From NCBI RefSeq assembly GCF_001530125.1, contig NZ_LDUG01000036.1, positions 1 through 64,000 on the forward strand: DNA of 64,000 nt. The letters run 5' to 3'. A model generated the notes under the pieces. It saw only the letters and a program-made list of their open reading frames with translations, was not told the DNA's origin and made no database searches. Of the stretch, positions 51,243 through 60,055 are shown one piece after another. Source of the stretch: Thiobacillus denitrificans (lineage in GTDB: Bacteria > Pseudomonadota > Gammaproteobacteria > Burkholderiales > Thiobacillaceae). The position numbers were made by a program, and so were the translations under genes. Position 1 is the stretch's first letter. Each line of letters begins with the position of its first letter.

Positions 51243-51650
51243 ATGCAGGCGTATGTGGTGTGGTGGATTCTGGCGGCGGTGCTGGTGGGCGTGGAGCTCA
51301 CCAGCGGCACGTTTTACCTGCTGGTGTATGGCCTGGCCGCAGCGGCGGCGGGCGGGGCCGCCTGGCTCGGCGCCGGGTTGTTTACACAGTTGCTGACGGC
51401 AGGCGTGATCGCCACGCTGGGCACCCTGGCACTGCGTCACTGGAAACGGAGCACCGAACATCCGGAATCCTCTTTACAGAACATGGACATCGGCCAGACC
51501 GTATGGGTCGAATCCTGGCAGGGCGGTCGCGGGCAGGTCAAATACCGCGGTGCACTGTGGGATGCCGAGGCCGAGTCGGCCGGCGTCGATAGCACGCACC
51601 CGCTGGTCATTCGTGCCGTCAAGGGCAATACGCTGATCCTGGGCAACTGA
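51243..51650 (+). CDS. NfeD-type membrane protein
   Basis: A 135-residue short NfeD protein: two or three membrane helices (WWILAAVLVGVELTSGTFYL) and a C-terminal OB fold (IGQTVWVESWQGGRGQVKYR). Works with stomatin/SPFH partners in membrane domain organisation; the stomatin gene follows 42 bp downstream. Confidence 0.88.
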   Translation: MQAYVVWWILAAVLVGVELTSGTFYLLVYGLAAAAAGGAAWLGAGLFTQLLTAGVIATLGTLALRHWKRSTEHPESSLQNMDIGQTVWVESWQGGRGQVKYRGALWDAEAESAGVDSTHPLVIRAVKGNTLILGN

Positions 51651-51692
51651 AATCCGGACAGCGCAATACTTAAATCAAAGGGAGAAAAATAA

Positions 51693-52613
51693 ATGGACGT
51701 TGTCGCACTCGTCATTCTGATTGTTATCGCTATCGTCGTCGCCAAGGGCGTGCGCGTCGTCCCGCAGCAAAACGCCTGGGTGGTCGAACGCCTCGGCAAG
51801 TTCCACGCCGTGCTCGGCCCCGGCCTCAACCTGGTCATCCCCTTCATCGACACTGTCGCCTACAAGCATTCGCTGAAGGAAATCCCGCTCGACGTGCCGA
51901 GCCAGGTCTGCATCACCCGCGACAACACCCAGCTGGCGGTCGACGGCATCCTCTACTTCCAGGTCACCGACCCCAAGATGGCGTCCTACGGCGCGAGCGA
52001 CTACATCGATGCCATCTCGCAGCTGGCGCAGACCACCCTGCGCTCGATGATCGGCCGCATGGAAATGGACCGCACCTTCGAAGAGCGCGACGACATCAAC
52101 CGCGGCGTCGTGCTGGCGCTGAACGAAGCGTCGACCAACTGGGGCGTCAAGGTGCTGCGCTACGAGATCAAGGACCTCACCCCGCCGAAGGAGATTCTCC
52201 ACGCCATGCAGCGGCAGATCACCGCCGAGCGCGAAAAGCGCGCGCTCATCGCATCCAGCGAAGGCCGCATGCAGGAGCAGATCAACATCGCCACCGGCGC
52301 GCGCAATGCGGCGATCCAGGAATCCGAAGGCGAGATGCAGGCGGCGATCAACGTCGCCCAGGGCGAGGCTGAAGCGATCAAGGCCATTGCCGCCGCCAAC
52401 GCCGAAGCCATCGCCCGCGTCGCGCGCGCCGTCGAACTGCCCGGCGGCATGCAGGCGGTGAACCTCAAGGTCGCCGAAAAATACGTCGAAGCCTTCGCCG
52501 GCATCGCCAAGACCGGCAACACCCTGATCGTGCCGTCCAACATGGCGGACATCAGCACGCTGATCGCGGGGGCGATGAGCGTGGTGAAGTCGAGTGGGGC
52601 GGGCGCGCAGTAA
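51693..52613 (+). CDS. SPFH/stomatin-family protein (QmcA-like)
   Basis: A 306-residue stomatin: one N-terminal membrane helix (VVALVILIVIAIVVAKGVRV), SPFH core (VPQQNAWVVERLGKFHAVLG), and a long coiled-coil region rich in Glu/Ala (QIAGAR-like NIATGARNAAIQESEGEM). Forms oligomeric rings or microdomains with NfeD. AAAGGGAG precedes the ATG. Last gene before the cassette array. Confidence 0.92.
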   Translation: MDVVALVILIVIAIVVAKGVRVVPQQNAWVVERLGKFHAVLGPGLNLVIPFIDTVAYKHSLKEIPLDVPSQVCITRDNTQLAVDGILYFQVTDPKMASYGASDYIDAISQLAQTTLRSMIGRMEMDRTFEERDDINRGVVLALNEASTNWGVKVLRYEIKDLTPPKEILHAMQRQITAEREKRALIASSEGRMQEQINIATGARNAAIQESEGEMQAAINVAQGEAEAIKAIAAANAEAIARVARAVELPGGMQAVNLKVAEKYVEAFAGIAKTGNTLIVPSNMADISTLIAGAMSVVKSSGAGAQ

Positions 52614-52676
52614 ACAAACTGAAATCCTGCGGCTTACTCATAACTGACAAAGATCCGGGCAGTGTGGAGAAAAAAA

Positions 52677-52754
52677 TGACACAGAATTATCAGCCTAACC
52701 CTGCATTCGAGCAGTACCGCCGCGAAGCGGAGGCTCCTCAATTTGAACGTTAGC
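52677..52754 (+). CDS. Possible 25-residue peptide running through attC1
   Basis: ATG 52677, with GGAG nearby, reads MTQNYQPNPAFEQYRREAEA and ends at a TAG inside the recombination site. Peptides read through attC sites are frequent by chance and are often left as C-terminal tails of cassette genes. Weak evidence for a real product. Confidence 0.2.
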
Positions 52755-52755
52755 T
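52693..52755 (+). other. attC-like recombination site 1
   Basis: GCCTAAC at 52693-52699 and GTTAGCT at 52749-52755 enclose a 49-bp imperfect palindrome with a central CCGCCGCGAAGCGG hairpin. This is the plan of an integron attC (R''-L''-loop-L'-R'). It precedes the first cassette gene. Confidence 0.7.
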
Positions 52756-52760
52756 CTTAT

Positions 52761-53333
52761 ATGGACGAATCGTCATTATTTGGAAACTCCAAGTCCTACT
52801 GGGACATGCTGAATGGTTTTGCAAACTGGTTCGCTGCAGCGGGTTCTTTTGCGGCAGCATCGGTTGCTCTGTACATTGCGAATCGCGCTGCTAAACCATC
52901 AGCAAGAGTTTCGGTTGGGCACCGGATTGTCCTTGGCCCAGGCAGCTCTAAACCCTACCCCGAGTTTGCTGTCTTTCGGATAGTTAATACCGGGGATCGC
53001 CCCATACGCGTCATCCAACTTGGTTGGAAAGTTGGCCTTTTCCGAAAACGCTCTGCTGTTCAAATGTACGAAGCAATACAGAGTAGCCCGCTCCCAGTTG
53101 AGTTAACACATGGCCAAGAAGCATCGTGGTTCGTTCCGCTCTCTGCAAGAGAAGAACCGTGGTTGGAGTATTTTGCAAAGGGCATGCTCACGCCTAGCTA
53201 CCGCACGGCACTGTGGACATTACGTGCTCAGGTATTCACCTCAGTAGGCTTTGTGTTCGAATCCAGGCCCGAAGAAGGTTTGCTAAAACGCCTGCGAGAT
53301 GCATGTATAAAGGTAACAAAGAATGGGAGCTAA
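52761..53333 (+). CDS. Cassette gene A: single-helix membrane protein, unknown
   Basis: A 190-residue protein: a hydrophobic helix near residues 18-40 (NWFAAAGSFAAASVALYIAN), then a soluble domain (FAVFRIVNTGDRPIRVIQLG). This kind of N-terminal helix plus beta domain is often seen in cassette hypotheticals. ATG 52761 is chosen; the TTG upstream lies inside attC1. Noticeably less GC-rich than the host genes. Its stop overlaps the R'' box of attC2. Confidence 0.7.
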   Translation: MDESSLFGNSKSYWDMLNGFANWFAAAGSFAAASVALYIANRAAKPSARVSVGHRIVLGPGSSKPYPEFAVFRIVNTGDRPIRVIQLGWKVGLFRKRSAVQMYEAIQSSPLPVELTHGQEASWFVPLSAREEPWLEYFAKGMLTPSYRTALWTLRAQVFTSVGFVFESRPEEGLLKRLRDACIKVTKNGS

Positions 53334-53427
53334 CCCCTCTATCAGTCAACCGGACGCCCCAACAGCTGCGCTGTTGGGGTTCCCTCCGCGCTACGCGCTC
53401 CGGCACCGATTACTTCAAACGTTATGC
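53328..53427 (+). other. attC-like recombination site 2
   Basis: R'' AGCTAAC at 53328-53334, R' GTTATGC at 53421-53427. AGCTAAC is the exact complement of GTTAGCT, which opens this cassette at 52749, as the circular-cassette model predicts. The interior has two stems, CCCCAACAGC/GCTGTTGGGG and GCGC-TACG-GCGC-type. Gene A ends in it. Confidence 0.75.
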
Positions 53428-54146
53428 CTCACATGACTGAGCTACCTCCCGACCAGCTTGCGCTCGAAATAGAAGACTTGATTCGCACTATGCCAGGGCC
53501 ACGAGACTTCTCAGTCAACCCGGATAAGTGTCTTCCATGGCTCGGGCGTGCCAATGCCGCTATGCGTGCGTGGGATACTGTTCAATCCCTCATTCACTTT
53601 GAACCGTTGGTGCGTACGGTATCCACTGGCGGTAATTTCGATTTCAGCGCCACTCGGCGAAATGTCCTTGTGCAACTACACCAAGCGCAAAGCGACTTGC
53701 GCTTTCGTATAACTGGACCGCTGTCTCTCGGAATTGATTCTGGCAGAGTGTTTGATTACTTCGACGAAGTCCGGAAACTTGTTGAGTCCGCGAAGGCCGA
53801 TCTTCTGTTCGTCGATCCCTTCCTTGATGCCGAATTTGTCTCGCGCTACCTCCCGCATGTACCCGATGGTACTGCGGTTCGCCTACTCGCACGGGAGCGG
53901 ATGGCCTCCCTTAAGTCAGCAGTCGCTGCCTTTTCGGCGCAGAACAATATTGTGGTCGAGGCTCGCAGCGCAGCAGGCTTCCATGACCGCTATATCTTTG
54001 TTGACGGCTTGGCGTGCTACCAGTCGGGCGCCTCGTTCAAAGATGGCGCGAAGAAGACGCCGACTACTCTCACCCAGATCACGGACGCCTTCGCGGTAGT
54101 CCAATCTACATACGAGAATCTATGGGCTCAAGGTACACCGGCATGA
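53424..54146 (+). CDS. Cassette gene B: PLD/HKD-like fold protein, unknown
   Basis: A 240-residue protein with no leader. The C-terminal half has a strand-helix pattern ending in AAGFHDRYIFVDGLACYQSG, similar to phosphodiesterase-like domains (PLD superfamily, H-x-K/R positions) found in defence and repair proteins; only one such motif is present. ADLLFVDPFLDAEFVSRYLP also fits this fold. ATG 53424 overlaps attC2; ATG 53433 is the alternative. Function unknown. Confidence 0.65.
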   Translation: MPHMTELPPDQLALEIEDLIRTMPGPRDFSVNPDKCLPWLGRANAAMRAWDTVQSLIHFEPLVRTVSTGGNFDFSATRRNVLVQLHQAQSDLRFRITGPLSLGIDSGRVFDYFDEVRKLVESAKADLLFVDPFLDAEFVSRYLPHVPDGTAVRLLARERMASLKSAVAAFSAQNNIVVEARSAAGFHDRYIFVDGLACYQSGASFKDGAKKTPTTLTQITDAFAVVQSTYENLWAQGTPA

Positions 54147-54227
54147 GGCCTAGCCTTTGTTGCAGGTGATTGCCAGCAAGCTGCGCTTGCCGGTGCGAAC
54201 GTCTAACCTCTCATTCCAACGTTAGAG
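54141..54227 (+). other. attC-like recombination site 3 (degenerate)
   Basis: R' GTTAGAG at 54221-54227 is clear. The expected R'' GCATAAC appears only as GCATGAG at 54141-54147, at the stop of gene B. A stem GCAAG-CTGCG-CTTGC lies in the middle. GTCTAAC just before the 3' end may be left from a lost cassette. Confidence 0.5.
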
Positions 54228-54230
54228 CGC

Positions 54231-54746
54231 ATGACCACTCTTGCCCAGCAACTGGAGAAGGCTGACCGTTTGGCGACTGTTACTCAGGGCGTCGGCTTTG
54301 CCTTGTGGCAGCTTCAGGAGTTGGAAGGTGTCGCCGCTCAGCATTTCGTCTTACTGGTGCAAGCAAAGAAAGGCATGGGCCTCGCCGAAGGAAACGCGCT
54401 TGTAGAGAAGGCGCAGACCAAAACGTTTGGGGCCACACTCCATCAAATTGCTAAGGCTGGTCTCATCTCGCCCGAAATGGAGAAACGTTTCACGAAGCTC
54501 CTCGCGGAAAGAAACTGGCTAGTCCATCGCTCTCGTGCAGAGAGTCGCAACGTCATACATAATGACAGCGCAATGGCGGCTCTTGTGGGTCGACTCGATG
54601 CCATGGCAGTTGAAGCCCTCGCTTTGCTTAAGTACATCGATGCGGAAACTGGCTCCTTTGTCCGGAAACATGGGGTATCAATGCACTACGTTGAGCAAGT
54701 CTCAAAACAACTGTTGGAGCAATGGTATGCCGCAGATGCGCTCTAA
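54231..54746 (+). CDS. Cassette gene C: protein with HEPN-type RNxxxH motif
   Basis: A 171-residue helical protein. LLAERNWLVHRSRAESRN contains the R-N-x3-H motif of HEPN ribonucleases, and a further pair of helices surrounds it. Size and all-helical character fit HEPN toxins and RNA-cutting effectors in defence systems. No antitoxin is encoded next to it in the cassette. The stop lies in the R'' box of attC4. Function is an inference from the motif only. Confidence 0.65.
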   Translation: MTTLAQQLEKADRLATVTQGVGFALWQLQELEGVAAQHFVLLVQAKKGMGLAEGNALVEKAQTKTFGATLHQIAKAGLISPEMEKRFTKLLAERNWLVHRSRAESRNVIHNDSAMAALVGRLDAMAVEALALLKYIDAETGSFVRKHGVSMHYVEQVSKQLLEQWYAADAL

Positions 54747-54806
54747 CCCTGCGTTCGAGGCTACCTGCGTGAAAAGCCGCGCCGGCACCTCAACTTCATG
54801 TTAGCT
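54741..54806 (+). other. attC-like recombination site 4
   Basis: R'' CTCTAAC at 54741-54747, R' GTTAGCT at 54800-54806. CTCTAAC is the exact complement of GTTAGAG, the opening of this cassette at 54221. The 52-bp interior folds with GCGTTCGAGG / CCTCAACTTC-type arms. Closely resembles attC1. Confidence 0.75.
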
Positions 54807-54826
54807 CGCAATATAAGGGAAATCCC

Positions 54827-56200
54827 ATGGCAATAGAGATTACTGACGAGCAGCGGGACGCCATCTTGGCCCTCGAAGAGGGGCATTTCCATGATTTAAA
54901 GCGCAAAGAAATTGCACCATCAAAACTTAGTCGCTCCGTTAGCGCACTCGCCAACGCGGCGGGGGGCGAGCTCTATATCGGAGTAGAAGAGCACGAGGTC
55001 GCTGGGCAGCAGGTGCGCAATTGGAATGGTTTTTCGGATGTTGAGGATGCAAATGCATTCCTCCAAATGTTACACACCATTGCGCCGTTGGCGGATTTTA
55101 TTGATACAACATTTCTTTCGCATCCGACGTCCAATGGTCAACTGCTAAAAATAGAAATTAGGAAAAATTCGACGTTAGTAAACACAACGGACGGCGTGGT
55201 TTATGTTCGCAAAGGGGCACAAAATCTGCCGGTGCCTGAAGGCGGTGCAATGGAACGGTTGCGCTTGGACAAAGGGATCGCGTCATATGAGGACTATACG
55301 GTTGATGTCGAACTTTCCGAAGTTGAAAACTCTGAAGTAATCATAGGATTCCTCATTAATGTAATCCCAACTGCCGAGCCAGAACCTTGGCTAAAGAAGC
55401 AGGGCATGATTCGTGACGGTAAGCCAACAGTAGCGGGCATCATGCTGTTTATGGATGAGCCGCAAGCAGCTCTGCCCAAACGAAGCGCCATCAAGATTTT
55501 TCGATATACCACATCAGATGCCACGCCCACACGGGATCAATTAGCGTTTGATCCGATCACGATTGAAGGTGCCGCCTATCATTTGATTTACGCCGCTGTG
55601 GAGCGGACCCAACACCTAATCGGAGAGATGAAAAAACTTGGGGCTGAGAGTCTTATTGAGATTACTTACCCACCAGAGACTCTGCACGAGATTATTACCA
55701 ATGCTGTTCTCCATCGAGATTACAGCATCGCCGCAGATGTCCAGATCCGAATATTCGACAACCGGGTGGAAGTGGAGAGCCCTGGGCGGCTCGCCGGTCA
55801 CGTGAGTCTTGAGAACATATTGGATACTCAATTCGCAAGAAATCAGCGGATTGTCAGGATGGTAAACAAATTTCCGAACCCGCCGAACAAGGATGTTGGC
55901 GAGGGACTAAATACAGCTTTTGATGCGATGAGGAAGTTGAGGCTAAAAGAACCATTTATAGAGGAAACGGAAAACTCCGTTAGGGTCATCATTCCCCATC
56001 AGAAGTTGGCTTCACCAGAAGATATGGTAATGGAATATCTGGAAGATTATGCCCAGATCGTCAATCGCGATGCGAGGCGTATTTGTGGCATTGCCTCGGA
56101 AAACACAATGAAAGGTGTCTTTAAGCGCCTCGAGGCCCGCGAGTTAATTGAACAAGTACCCGGAAGAAGTCGTTTCAGAGCGGCGTGGCGCAAACGGTAG
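54827..56200 (+). CDS. Cassette gene D: AlbA_2-domain ATP-binding protein
   Basis: A 457-residue protein. The N-terminal AlbA_2 (Schlafen-like) domain reads GHFHDLKRKEIAPSKLSRSV, SALANAAGGELYIGVEE. A middle HATPase-type region has PPETLHEIITNAVLHRDYSI and a winged helix ends the protein (ICGIASENTMKGVFKRLEAR). Proteins with this layout are putative transcriptional regulators or helicase-like factors and also occur in defence islands. AAGGGAAA precedes the ATG. AT-richer than the chromosome. Confidence 0.82.
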   Translation: MAIEITDEQRDAILALEEGHFHDLKRKEIAPSKLSRSVSALANAAGGELYIGVEEHEVAGQQVRNWNGFSDVEDANAFLQMLHTIAPLADFIDTTFLSHPTSNGQLLKIEIRKNSTLVNTTDGVVYVRKGAQNLPVPEGGAMERLRLDKGIASYEDYTVDVELSEVENSEVIIGFLINVIPTAEPEPWLKKQGMIRDGKPTVAGIMLFMDEPQAALPKRSAIKIFRYTTSDATPTRDQLAFDPITIEGAAYHLIYAAVERTQHLIGEMKKLGAESLIEITYPPETLHEIITNAVLHRDYSIAADVQIRIFDNRVEVESPGRLAGHVSLENILDTQFARNQRIVRMVNKFPNPPNKDVGEGLNTAFDAMRKLRLKEPFIEETENSVRVIIPHQKLASPEDMVMEYLEDYAQIVNRDARRICGIASENTMKGVFKRLEARELIEQVPGRSRFRAAWRKR

Positions 56201-56644
56201 GGTGAGAGCTAAATCGTTGCAGCAATGGGTCAAACGCCGCTTAACTCCCCTCCTGAGGTGTTGATGAAATCCAAAAATTCCATCATGGCACTTTCGATGC
56301 CGAACGCGGCAACTTCGCCGCAGCCACGAGACGGGGAAGTCCCTTTCATTCGTTAAACGTCTGCTTTTCAAACCGGCCAGCTTCCGCTACGGGTCGGGAG
56401 TATGCATTCGACGAAGTTGAAAGCAGCCGTTAAGCCATCCAGCGAAATTTCCCACCGTCGGCTTACGGGCATCGCGTCGAATTCACACAATCGGCCAGGA
56501 GCGGATGTTCAGGTTGAGGTGTCCGACCGTCTCACATTCGCCCAAAGCGGAAATGCGAGTCTGAGGCTCAACGGTTTCTAGTAAACTGGGGCCGATTCAT
56601 TACTAGCACTGGCCTTCTTCCAATTATAAGAATGGAAACTTTGA
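56201..56644. other. Gene-free 444 bp with a tentative attC5
   Basis: AGCTAAA at 56207-56213, one base off the complement of GTTAGCT that opens cassette D, and GTTAAAC at 56352-56358, a good R' box, could bound a 152-bp attC, longer than usual. The rest, to the restriction gene, shows no ORF or clear repeat. It may hold the promoter of the downstream gene. Confidence 0.4.
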
Positions 56645-59533
56645 ATGCCCCAGCGCTCTGACCAATTGCGCCATTTCGTGGATTGGTGTGCCGCGCACAT
56701 CAAAGGCGACGAAAAAGGCGAAGCACAGATTTTTCTCGACCAGTTTTTCCGCGCCTTTGGCCATGCCGGTGCCAAGGAAGCGGGTGCCACGTTTGAAGAT
56801 CGCATCAAGAAAGAAGGCAAGGGCACCAGCTTTGCCGATCTGGTGTGGAAGCCGCTGGTGCTGGTGGAAATGAAAAAACGCGGCGAAGACCTCACCAAGC
56901 ATTACCGTCAGGCCTTCGACTACTGGGTGCGGCTGGTCCCGGGAAGGCCGCGCTGGGTCTTGCTGTGCAATTTCGACGAATTCTGGGTGTACGACTTTGA
57001 AACCCAGATGGACAGCCCGGTCGATCAGGTTAGGCTTGCCGAACTGCCCGAGCGCTACGGGCCGCTCGCCTTCATGTTCCCCGAAGGCGACGAACCTGTG
57101 TTTGGCAACCATCAGGAGCAGGTCACTCGCGCAGCGGCCGATCAACTGGTAGCGCTATTCCGCGCACTGATCCGCCGCGGCATCGAACGCGGCCTGGCGC
57201 AGCGTTTCACCTTGCAGTCCCTGATGGCGCTGTTTGCCGAAGACATCGGCCTGCTGGAAAAATATTTCTTCGCCCGCCTGCTCGAAGACTGCGCCACCCC
57301 CACCCAGGCTTACGATCTCATCGGCCAGCTGTTCGTCGAAATGAATACGCCGGGCGTCACTGCCGGCGGCCGTTTCAAGGGCGTGTCGTATTTCAACGGT
57401 GGCCTGTTCGCTCAGCCGGCACGCATTGAATTGATGGCTGGCGAAATTCAGTTGCTGCGCGACGCAGCCCGGTTTGACTGGTCGAAAGTGCGGCCGGAGA
57501 TCTTCGGCGCCATCTTCGAGCACAGCATGGATGCCGAAGCCCGCCACGCCTACGGCGCGCACTACACCAGCCCGGTGGACATCATGAAGATCATCGGTCC
57601 CACCATCGTCGAGCCGTGGCGCGCGCAGATTGAAAAGGCCAAATCACTCGGTGCGCTGAAGAGGCTGCTAGTGCGCATTGAAAACTTCCATGTGCTCGAC
57701 CCCGCCTGCGGCTCCGGCAACTTTCTCTACATCGCCTATCGTGAACTCAAGCGGCTGGAAGCGCGCATCTACGAACGCATGGGCGAATATGCCAGCGTCA
57801 AGTCCGAGCAGCGCCCGTTCGGCTTCGTCACCGCGCGCAACTTCCACGGCCTGGACATCAACCCCTTCGCGGTCGAACTCGCCAAGGTCACCATGATGCT
57901 GGCGCACAAACTCGCCATCGACGAACTGCACATCGAGGAAGCCGCTCTGCCGCTCGACAATCTCGACGCCAATTTCATGGTCGGTGACGCGCTGCTGCGC
58001 GAAGACGGCAGCCGTTCGCCGTGGCCGGCAGCCGACGTCATCGTCGGCAATCCGCCCTTCCTCGGCGCCAAGCTGCTTAAGCCCAATTTCGGCACCGATT
58101 ACGTCAAGCGCCTGCGCAAGGCCTATCCCGAAGTACCGGGCATGGCGGATTTCTGCGTCTACTGGTTCCGCCGCGCCGAAACCCACCTGCCCACCTGCAC
58201 TGCGCAGGACCCGCTGGCCGGCCGAGGCGGCCTAGTCGGCACGCAAAACATCCGCAACAACGCCAGCCGCGTCGGCGGGCTCGACGCCATCTGCGCCAGC
58301 GGCACGGTGATCGAGGCGGTGGATAACCAGCCGTGGTCGGGCGAAGCCAACGTCCACGTCTCCATCGCCAACTGGGTGAAAACGCAGGACGACGTGCTGC
58401 TGCCGAAGCAGCGGCGGCTGTGGTTCAAGATCGAACCCGCCAAAGGTGGAGCCCGACGCCCCCGTGGCAGCGGGCAGGCCAGTAAAGACTACGAGCTGGA
58501 TATGCGCGAAGTGGCGCATATCAACGCTTCGCTGTCGGATAAGGTGGATGTAGGGGGCGCCGCGCTTCTTTCCTGCAATGAAGGTGTTTGCTATACAGGC
58601 CAATACCCACGCCATAAGGGATTCATGCTGACTGCCAAGCAAGCGCAGTCAATGCTCAAAGACTCAATCAACAACGATGTTGTGAAGTTATTCATGGTGG
58701 GCGAAGAGATGCTTACCACTGGTCGAACAGACCGCTACGTTATCGACTTCCAAACTCGCGACATTCTTGATGCCCAGCGCTATTTAGCGCCATTTGAACA
58801 TCTGCGACAGCAGGTACTGCCACACGTCCAAACACTTGCCGCTACTGAAAAACTGAAATCTGGGAAAGACACTGGCCAGGATCAGAACTGGCTCAAAACA
58901 TGGTGGCAGCATTTCCGCTGCCGTCCCGAGCTCATTGGAAAGTTGTCCAAACTACCGCGTTACCTCGCTTGCTCTCGCGTCACCAAGCGGCCCATCTTCG
59001 TCTTCGTCGATGCTGCTATTCGCCCCGGTGACGCCTTGCAGGTGTTTGCGCTGGCTGACGATTACAGTTTCGGTATCTTGCAATCGGTCGCACACGCCCA
59101 ATGGTTCATTGCCAACTGCTCGAAGCTAACCGAGCGACTGCGCTACACAACCGAAACCGTTTTCGACACCTTTCCTTGGCCGCAAGCTGCCGCCATCGAA
59201 CAGGTTGACGCCGTAGCCGAAGCAGGCCGTCGCTTGCGCGCCTTGCGCGACCAGTCGCTGCAGTCCATGAATGGTGGCCTGCGGGCGCTCTACCGCACAC
59301 TCGACCTGCCGGGCAAGAATCCTCTCCGCGACGCCCATGACGCGCTCGATGCTGCCGTACTTAAGGCTTACGGCTTCAACCCAAAATGCGACCTTCTGGA
59401 GCAACTGCTGCATTTGAACCAGCAGGTCGCCGCAGAAATAGCGGCTGGAAAAGCAGGCGTTGGGCCGGGTATTCCGGCGGGCTATCTCAATCCCTCTGGC
59501 TTGGTCTCAAGTGATGCCTACCAGCCAAGCTAA
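56645..59533 (+). CDS. Type IIL restriction-modification enzyme (MmeI family)
   Basis: A 962-residue single-chain enzyme. N-terminal nuclease: FADLVWKPLVLVEMKKRG has D65-x9-E75-x-K77, the MmeI spacing. Then a helical connector, the N6-adenine methyltransferase with DPACGSGNFLYIAYRELK (about 350) and VIVGNPPFLGAKLL (about 468), and a C-terminal target-recognition part. MmeI-type enzymes methylate one strand and cut about 20 bases away in one polypeptide. Full length and intact. A canonical start is ATG 56645, just past a weak leader. Probably active host defence. Confidence 0.85.
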   Translation: MPQRSDQLRHFVDWCAAHIKGDEKGEAQIFLDQFFRAFGHAGAKEAGATFEDRIKKEGKGTSFADLVWKPLVLVEMKKRGEDLTKHYRQAFDYWVRLVPGRPRWVLLCNFDEFWVYDFETQMDSPVDQVRLAELPERYGPLAFMFPEGDEPVFGNHQEQVTRAAADQLVALFRALIRRGIERGLAQRFTLQSLMALFAEDIGLLEKYFFARLLEDCATPTQAYDLIGQLFVEMNTPGVTAGGRFKGVSYFNGGLFAQPARIELMAGEIQLLRDAARFDWSKVRPEIFGAIFEHSMDAEARHAYGAHYTSPVDIMKIIGPTIVEPWRAQIEKAKSLGALKRLLVRIENFHVLDPACGSGNFLYIAYRELKRLEARIYERMGEYASVKSEQRPFGFVTARNFHGLDINPFAVELAKVTMMLAHKLAIDELHIEEAALPLDNLDANFMVGDALLREDGSRSPWPAADVIVGNPPFLGAKLLKPNFGTDYVKRLRKAYPEVPGMADFCVYWFRRAETHLPTCTAQDPLAGRGGLVGTQNIRNNASRVGGLDAICASGTVIEAVDNQPWSGEANVHVSIANWVKTQDDVLLPKQRRLWFKIEPAKGGARRPRGSGQASKDYELDMREVAHINASLSDKVDVGGAALLSCNEGVCYTGQYPRHKGFMLTAKQAQSMLKDSINNDVVKLFMVGEEMLTTGRTDRYVIDFQTRDILDAQRYLAPFEHLRQQVLPHVQTLAATEKLKSGKDTGQDQNWLKTWWQHFRCRPELIGKLSKLPRYLACSRVTKRPIFVFVDAAIRPGDALQVFALADDYSFGILQSVAHAQWFIANCSKLTERLRYTTETVFDTFPWPQAAAIEQVDAVAEAGRRLRALRDQSLQSMNGGLRALYRTLDLPGKNPLRDAHDALDAAVLKAYGFNPKCDLLEQLLHLNQQVAAEIAAGKAGVGPGIPAGYLNPSGLVSSDAYQPS

Positions 59534-59656
59534 AATTGAATCGCCCCCAGTCCACTAGATACATTTGAGCCCCAACCGGTTTGTCTGCTTTGGCCTTGCG
59601 AATTCAACCGGTGGATGCGGCTTTGTTGGCGTGTTTCGAGAAGGTCGAGGTTATGA

Positions 59657-60055
59657 CGCCCTGATCTCGTTCAGCAGGTCGGGGTGACGATCCAGCACCT
59701 TGAGTAGCTTCACCAAGGCCAGAGACGGCTTGGTTTTACCGTTCTCGTAGCGCGGAAGGCATTGACGCCACCGCCGAAGATTTCGGCGGCCGCGCGTTGG
59801 TCAACCGCGAGTATCTTGCTCGCTGGCGATGAAGTCTGGATCGACAATTGCCGCGTTGACCTGCTTCGAGAAGGCGCGCATCTCGCGCATGACGCGATCC
59901 GATTCCGCCGCATCCAGGACGGACTCGGCGCAGGCCGGGCAGAAGTCGCCCGTCACCGCCGCGATGACGGTGGTTTCACCCTTGTAGGTGTAGGGCACGT
60001 CGCGAGTGTCGTGGATCAGTTCAGCCGCGCCGCAAAGAGGACACTTCATGTTCAT
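59657..60055 (-). pseudogene. MqsA-type antitoxin, twice frameshifted
   Basis: The zinc-binding N-terminus is intact (MNMKCPLCGAAELIHDTRDV, FCPACAESVLDAAESDRVMR). At DPDFIASEQ the frame is lost near 59832; the next frame gives KILAVDQRAAAEIFGGGVNA and is lost again near 59750; the third gives YENGKTKPSLALVKLLKVLD and ends with a TAA about 59657. Reassembled, it is a normal MqsA of about 130 residues with its XRE-type HTH. Two shifts in one short gene point to real decay. Confidence 0.8.

Follow-up and report, generated by a model that had tools for sequence, protein, structure and literature searches.

Evidence for an array of integron cassettes, with no integrase gene beside it, downstream of an SPFH gene in Thiobacillus denitrificans

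Integron cassette arrays without their own integrase (CALINs) are defined by at least two attC sites with no intI nearby, and they are common, with 2961 CALINs reported by IntegronFinder 2 beside 2760 complete integrons (PMC9024848). In Xanthomonas, about half of the genomes have CALINs at places other than that of the ilvD integron (PMC12444791). The array described here lies in Thiobacillus denitrificans, within bases 1-64000 of contig C30 (the window, i.e. the whole 64,000-nt stretch analysed) of a genome of 3.29 Mb in 86 contigs, 99.99% complete and with 2.49% contamination. The interval 52693-54806, downstream of an SPFH gene, is assigned to the CALINs with high confidence, and very probably its cassettes were placed there by an integron integrase (IntI), with attI and intI now absent beside the array. 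As in the published definition (PMC9024848), there are at least two attC sites and no nearby intI, and the cassettes also share one strand; unlike a CALIN as defined, half of the sites here (two of four) are degraded and the same genome holds intI-linked arrays with similar attC sites. The likeness to the Xanthomonas CALINs is that arrays occupy chromosomal places apart from intI and that some cassette genes are defence genes, according to PMC12444791, which also describes places partly common to several species, whereas at the Thiobacillus place attC sites (E <0.01) were present in only one of 46 relatives (locus L068), with other cassettes, plus a weak site in locus L063. As a gene store the array is one more case of a familiar type, and some features at its margins are unusual.

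No Rfam family reached its gathering score in the window, and attC covariance models were therefore built for this analysis and used instead of the IntegronFinder model. The first model (R1) was derived from 13 sites located beside the two intI genes of the genome (nine on contig C27, four on C52), picked by script and by eye, none of them from the window. Over the 64 kb, R1 returned two sites with E <0.01, namely sites 1 and 4, and the next two matches had E-values of 1.2 and 2.9. The broader model (R2), built from 67 R1-found sites with window sites 1 and 4 in its training set, recovered all four. Site 3 is internally deleted, with 13 bases left between the retained outer boxes. The initial annotation had counted four to five attC-like sites and had proposed a covariance-model search as a check; with these home-made models attC sites were found in the window and four of the candidates stood, but the fifth (at about 56206-56358) was rejected, as R1 gave only 4.9 bits (56299-56358) and R2 did not find it. 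On the bottom strand, sites 1 and 4 folded into attC-like hairpin shapes with z-scores of -0.24 and -1.13 against shuffled sequence. A 25-codon open reading frame (ORF; 52676-52753, ATG start preceded by GGAG) spans all of attC site 1 and has its stop in the last box, possibly by chance.

The opening bases of each cassette in an integron array are complementary to the start of the attC site that the cassette carries. Pairing of GTTAGCT at 52749 with AGCTAAC at 53328, and of GTTAGAG at 54221 with CTCTAAC at 54741, had been pointed out from the sequence, and the boxes are present at these places with 7 of 7 bases paired for both cassettes 1 and 3 (5 of 7 for cassette 2), whereas the outer boxes within single window sites match in just 4-6 of 7 positions. 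Taking the window together with the two intI-linked arrays, full pairing was found in 12 of 15 cassettes, a number equalled in none of 100,000 partner shuffles. For cassette 4, the start GTTAGCT and AGCTAAA at 56207 agree in 6 of 7 bases, the latter not being part of an attC site by either model. Each cassette would once have existed as a free circle, its ends joined at the attC that it carries.

The four cassette genes share one strand and have a G+C content of 48-55% in 1-kb windows, against 63-69% across the 5 kb to the left of the array and 56-64% over the restriction gene at the right, which bears out their earlier description as same-strand, AT-richer genes. None of the eight listed matches of the integron integrase family TIGR02249, searched against the whole genome, is on contig C30; the statement that the window lacks an integrase therefore held, but intI is present on two other contigs. 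One, on the 25-kb contig C52, is full-length and above the family cut-off (457 bits) with four adjoining attC sites, and the other (C27:118439-119400) has its frame broken into two overlapping pieces and is adjoined by nine. With R1, at least 19 matches were obtained in the whole genome at E 4e-4 or better and one more at E 2.7, the scan having scored the best 150 of 4357 first-look candidates, so that copies may be missed. They comprise the nine C27 and four C52 sites (all thirteen being the training set), two in the window, and four single, scattered sites at C5:19312, C11:156896, C15:27933 (joined to a dispersed repeat) and C47:7081. By their likeness to the sites that adjoin the two intI genes of this genome, the window sites link the array to the Thiobacillus integron system. 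Within the genus, intI above the family cut-off was found in 38 of 56 genomes and attC (R1, E 0.001) in at least 53 of 56, with 93 first-look candidates scored per genome.

Table 1. Features of the array and its flanks in the window (coordinates of the forward strand).
Feature	Position	Strand	Remarks
NfeD-like gene	51243-51650		precedes SPFH gene
SPFH/band-7 (QmcA-like) gene, left flank	51693-52613	+	Pfam Band_7 E 2.7e-37
Whole variable insert (array and restriction gene)	52662-59650	.	homology breaks versus close relatives
attC site 1	52693-52755	+	R1 41.8 bits, E 4.2e-9; leftmost, own cassette gene missing
Cassette 1	52750-53421	+	gene 52761-53333
attC site 2	53328-53427	+	R2 21.5 bits, E 2.6e-4; bulky, long extra hairpins mid-site; no full-site R1 match
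Cassette 2	53422-54221	+	gene 53433-54146 (or from 53424); predicted PLD-superfamily fold, PADLOC PDC-S05
attC site 3	54201-54227	+	R1 13.1 bits, E 0.04 (unfiltered scan of 51500-57500); R2 20.0 bits, E 7e-4
Cassette 3	54222-54800	+	gene 54231-54746; all-helical, probable HEPN RNase
attC site 4	54741-54806	+	R1 30.1 bits, E 7.5e-6
Cassette 4	54801-56352, right end loosely placed	+	gene 54827-56200; SLFN AlbA_2 and HATPase_c_4
84-base inverted-repeat element of dispersed repeat	56352-56435	+	partial copies across genus
MmeI-like type IIG restriction-modification gene, right flank	56645-59533	+	PADLOC REase_MTase_IIG 1147.9 bits; MmeI Pfam domains

The cassettes had been described as carrying unknown proteins, which remains apt for gene 1, while two or three of the four look nuclease- or defence-like. 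The gene of cassette 1 begins with TTG at 52743 in the ORF list, and most of the aligned homologs start at ATG 52761; its product has one membrane helix near the N-terminus (by eye), 152 relatives in the protein collection, and no Pfam family at E 0.1. The product of cassette 2 is predicted to be a PLD-fold protein, the fold spanning about residues 94-240 of the structure model, and all 16 aligned relatives (of 1688 found) match the PADLOC candidate family PDC-S05. The classical PLD catalytic motif is HxKx4D; in the same 16 sequences the invariant motif is H-D-R-x4-D, with arginine in place of lysine, for which reason the protein is named PLD-fold only. In the cassette 3 family R94-x4-H99 is invariant in 19 of 19 aligned sequences (of 238 found) and fits the HEPN motif Rx4-6H. 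Foldseek alone gave no match for cassette 3 at E <0.001, and HEPN structures were among its fold matches at scores reached by chance by helical bundles; the product is probably a HEPN RNase. Cassette 4 matches SLFN AlbA_2 (E 8.1e-13) and HATPase_c_4 (E 1.6e-16) in Pfam, and pAgo-linked models in PADLOC (E 3.2e-15). A defence role for cassettes 2-4 may reasonably be inferred from homology, motif and fold.

Relatives were searched among 399 genomes of the order, own genome included, and their loci were tested with both R1 and R2. Matches were found in six genomes for cassette 1, four for cassette 2 and three for cassette 3 (E up to 1e-5), and in 11 for cassette 4 (E up to 1e-20). For cassette 1, attC adjoins the relative in one of five loci (L220 in genome G441, 60% identical, with attC on both sides), for cassette 2 in one of three (L212), and for cassette 3 in two of two (L217, 80% identical, and L218, 45% identical with attC on both sides); a further cassette 2 match (L215, E 8e-7, same genome as L212) is outside the three loci counted. 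The attC sites of L212, L217, L218 and L220 were found by R1 independently of the window, and several of them later entered R2. Relatives of genes 1-3 are beside attC sites in other genera, as had been proposed for checking. Cassette 4 as a travelling cassette is unsupported, as no relative in 10 loci was in a recognised array; the single weak match, at L228 (20.4 bits), is on the opposite strand.

In 47 of the 56 genus genomes the SPFH gene has close copies (84-100% identical), of which three are fragmented, and in the rest it has more distant relatives. Homology to close relatives ends at 52646 (L061) and 52661 (L063), and the match to L061 resumes at 59651, which makes the array and the MmeI-like gene together the variable part. 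L061 carries in the same interval an AbiU gene and a REase-like gene, together with what by eye is an IS3-like transposase. The region between the SPFH gene and mqsA-glnS, where the array is located, is variable and rich in defence genes. A MqsA-like antitoxin gene is at 59801-60055 on the minus strand. At the matching place of the 46 relatives, covered over 0.5-8 kb after the SPFH gene, none of the four cassette genes was detected, and the gene order is accordingly not fixed in relatives; a fixed order was the result that would have spoken against the initial annotation. Its assignment to the CALINs is borne out by the attC models, the box pairing, the unfixed gene order, and the cassette relatives beside attC elsewhere.

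A clean empty site was not found among the loci compared: L061 has other cargo, and L062 and L063 diverge just after the SPFH gene. L068, from another Thiobacillus, has after the SPFH gene an array of two attC sites with different cassettes, of which one has a TIR-like product (E 1.3e-7) and another a product with weak likeness to HEPN (E 0.0027, under the Pfam cut-off). At L068 8978-11107, an attI-like sequence without adjoining intI heads the cassettes at this same chromosomal place; the window has no copy of the attI-like motif seen in L068 and on C27. The weak attC-like site of L063 (15.1 bits, E 0.13; listed as L252) is about 3 kb downstream and fused to a repeat.

Several observations weigh against an array placed by IntI. 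Cassette 2 pairs in 5 of 7 bases only, sites 2 and 3 are the degraded half of the set, and the folding of the good sites 1 and 4 is no better than that of shuffles. Relatives without nearby attC outnumber those with it (four of five loci for cassette 1, two of three for cassette 2), and with R1 and R2 none was seen in a recognised array for cassette 4 (0/10 loci). The grounds for a defence function are homology, motif and fold only, and a consensus promoter search found none against a mean of 3.1 in shuffles. Contig C52, with its full-length intI, could be foreign, since the assembly has 86 contigs and 2.49% contamination.

Two histories of the IntI-placed array were compared. Insertion of excised cassettes by IntI in trans at an ordinary attG-type chromosomal site has close to an even chance of being correct. 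It is favoured by the presence of IntI elsewhere in the genome and by the four single attC sites scattered on C5, C11, C15 and C47, and such events are on record, as cited in PMC12444791 and PMC12901181. A simple event of this kind would, however, leave no attC at the left end, where site 1 is present, and by eye no clear GTT core is seen at the left junction, near 52661. The second, tentative history is that of a complete integron at this place from which intI and attI were deleted. The leftmost attC without a cassette gene looks as though the left part had been cut away, and the L068 array at the same place starts with the attI-like sequence and no adjoining intI; against this, contig C30 has no intI match, and among the listed positions no intI above the cut-off is within 20 kb of a close SPFH copy in any genus genome, the nearest being about 26 kb away (G053).

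That a complete integron was split across contigs is highly improbable. The assembly is a draft, and the IntegronFinder authors warn of integrons split by draft assembly (PMC9024848), but the array is 52 kb inside the contig start with at least 9 kb more at the right, and both flanks match L061 at 92-94%. Least credible of all are ordinary genes with chance inverted repeats, which the weak folding z-scores would allow but against which stand the covariance-model E-values, the box pairing and the cassette relatives in other arrays.

An attI-like motif, taken from beside the C27 intI, occurs in 21 copies in 15 of the 56 genus genomes, and the reversed pattern never. Immediately upstream of seven copies is an intI, the C27 one being frame-broken, and two copies are too near a contig edge to be assigned. 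At least 11 have no intI similarity in the locus (1.5 kb upstream), i.e. L150, L157, L160, L161, L146, L151, L152, L153, L155, L156 and L159, and L158 is counted apart, as intI is only on the other side of the copy. In the latter locus (G050 C39:47572-49205) attI-like copies flank one intI as same-orientation direct repeats, and genome G026 holds four intI-less copies (L150, L157, L160, L161) and one intI elsewhere. All seven intI-linked copies, and six of the remaining 12, are followed on their own strand by an attC site no more than 1.5 kb downstream; these six are among the 11 copies without intI. The delta-attI gene cassettes of mobile integrons are similar in being attI pieces away from intI, and according to PMC12901181 these pieces follow a gene within class 1 or 2 arrays. 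The copies in Thiobacillus differ in being chromosomal, with no upstream intI and with attC closely following six of 12.

The dispersed repeat (window 56352-56435; L236-L260) begins TTRARCGTCTGCTTTC, and frequently an attC is joined to it by its right end, in matching orientation. In a similarity set, made up of the 17 listed copies that span roughly query bases 162-193, with the window omitted and at most the best 11 candidates scored per genome, the left half of the repeat was joined to attC clearly in eight, weakly in two and not in seven (R2). A pattern-chosen set of 18 without the window, sharing 10 loci with the former, gave nine clear, three weak and six without an abutting attC (R2); L240 and L245 among these six are one-mismatch matches and by eye not the repeat. 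The junction had the same direction in every clear case. As a control, 20 loci matched via other parts of the query (mostly the right half or beyond) had no abutting attC, the site at L203, a locus from the R2 training, being 51 bases off and on the opposite strand. That the repeat is always behind an attC was rejected as too strong, 7 of 17 and 6 of 18 copies having none. No attC was found abutting the window's own copy, and the element at 56352-56435 may retain in its first bases the R' box of a final attC that was lost. The repeat may be a preferred landing place for cassettes, or a small mobile element targeting attC.

The intI-less attI-like copies (at least 11), and the repeat directly after many attC sites and perhaps ending the window array, may be new: within the open-licence literature searched, no description was found of intI-less attI copies heading arrays, or of this repeat, in Thiobacillus. 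A wider proposal, rather unlikely at present, is a scattered integron in Thiobacillus, in which one or two intI genes serve many satellite arrays, some beginning at a detached attI and many with attC sites abutting the repeat, the window array being one satellite that ends at 56352-56435. Both the attI and the repeat observations come from draft genomes.

For the IntI-placed array, we infer that the full-length IntI of C52 can act in trans on the window sites. Sites 1 and 4 would then be the most active pair, and cassettes 1-3 would leave as one 2,051-base circle, while the bulky site 2 and the deleted site 3 would make excision of single cassettes rare. The cassette products (PLD-fold, HEPN RNase, SLFN/AlbA) would act mainly in defence against foreign nucleic acid, at a spot where relatives have defence genes too.

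The array is a well-supported case of cassettes apart from their integrase in an environmental genus, and it identifies as cassette cargo three protein families that are poorly described, for two of which a fold or motif can be read. Should the observations on detached attI copies and on the terminal repeat be upheld, the founding of integrase-less arrays would become directly testable.

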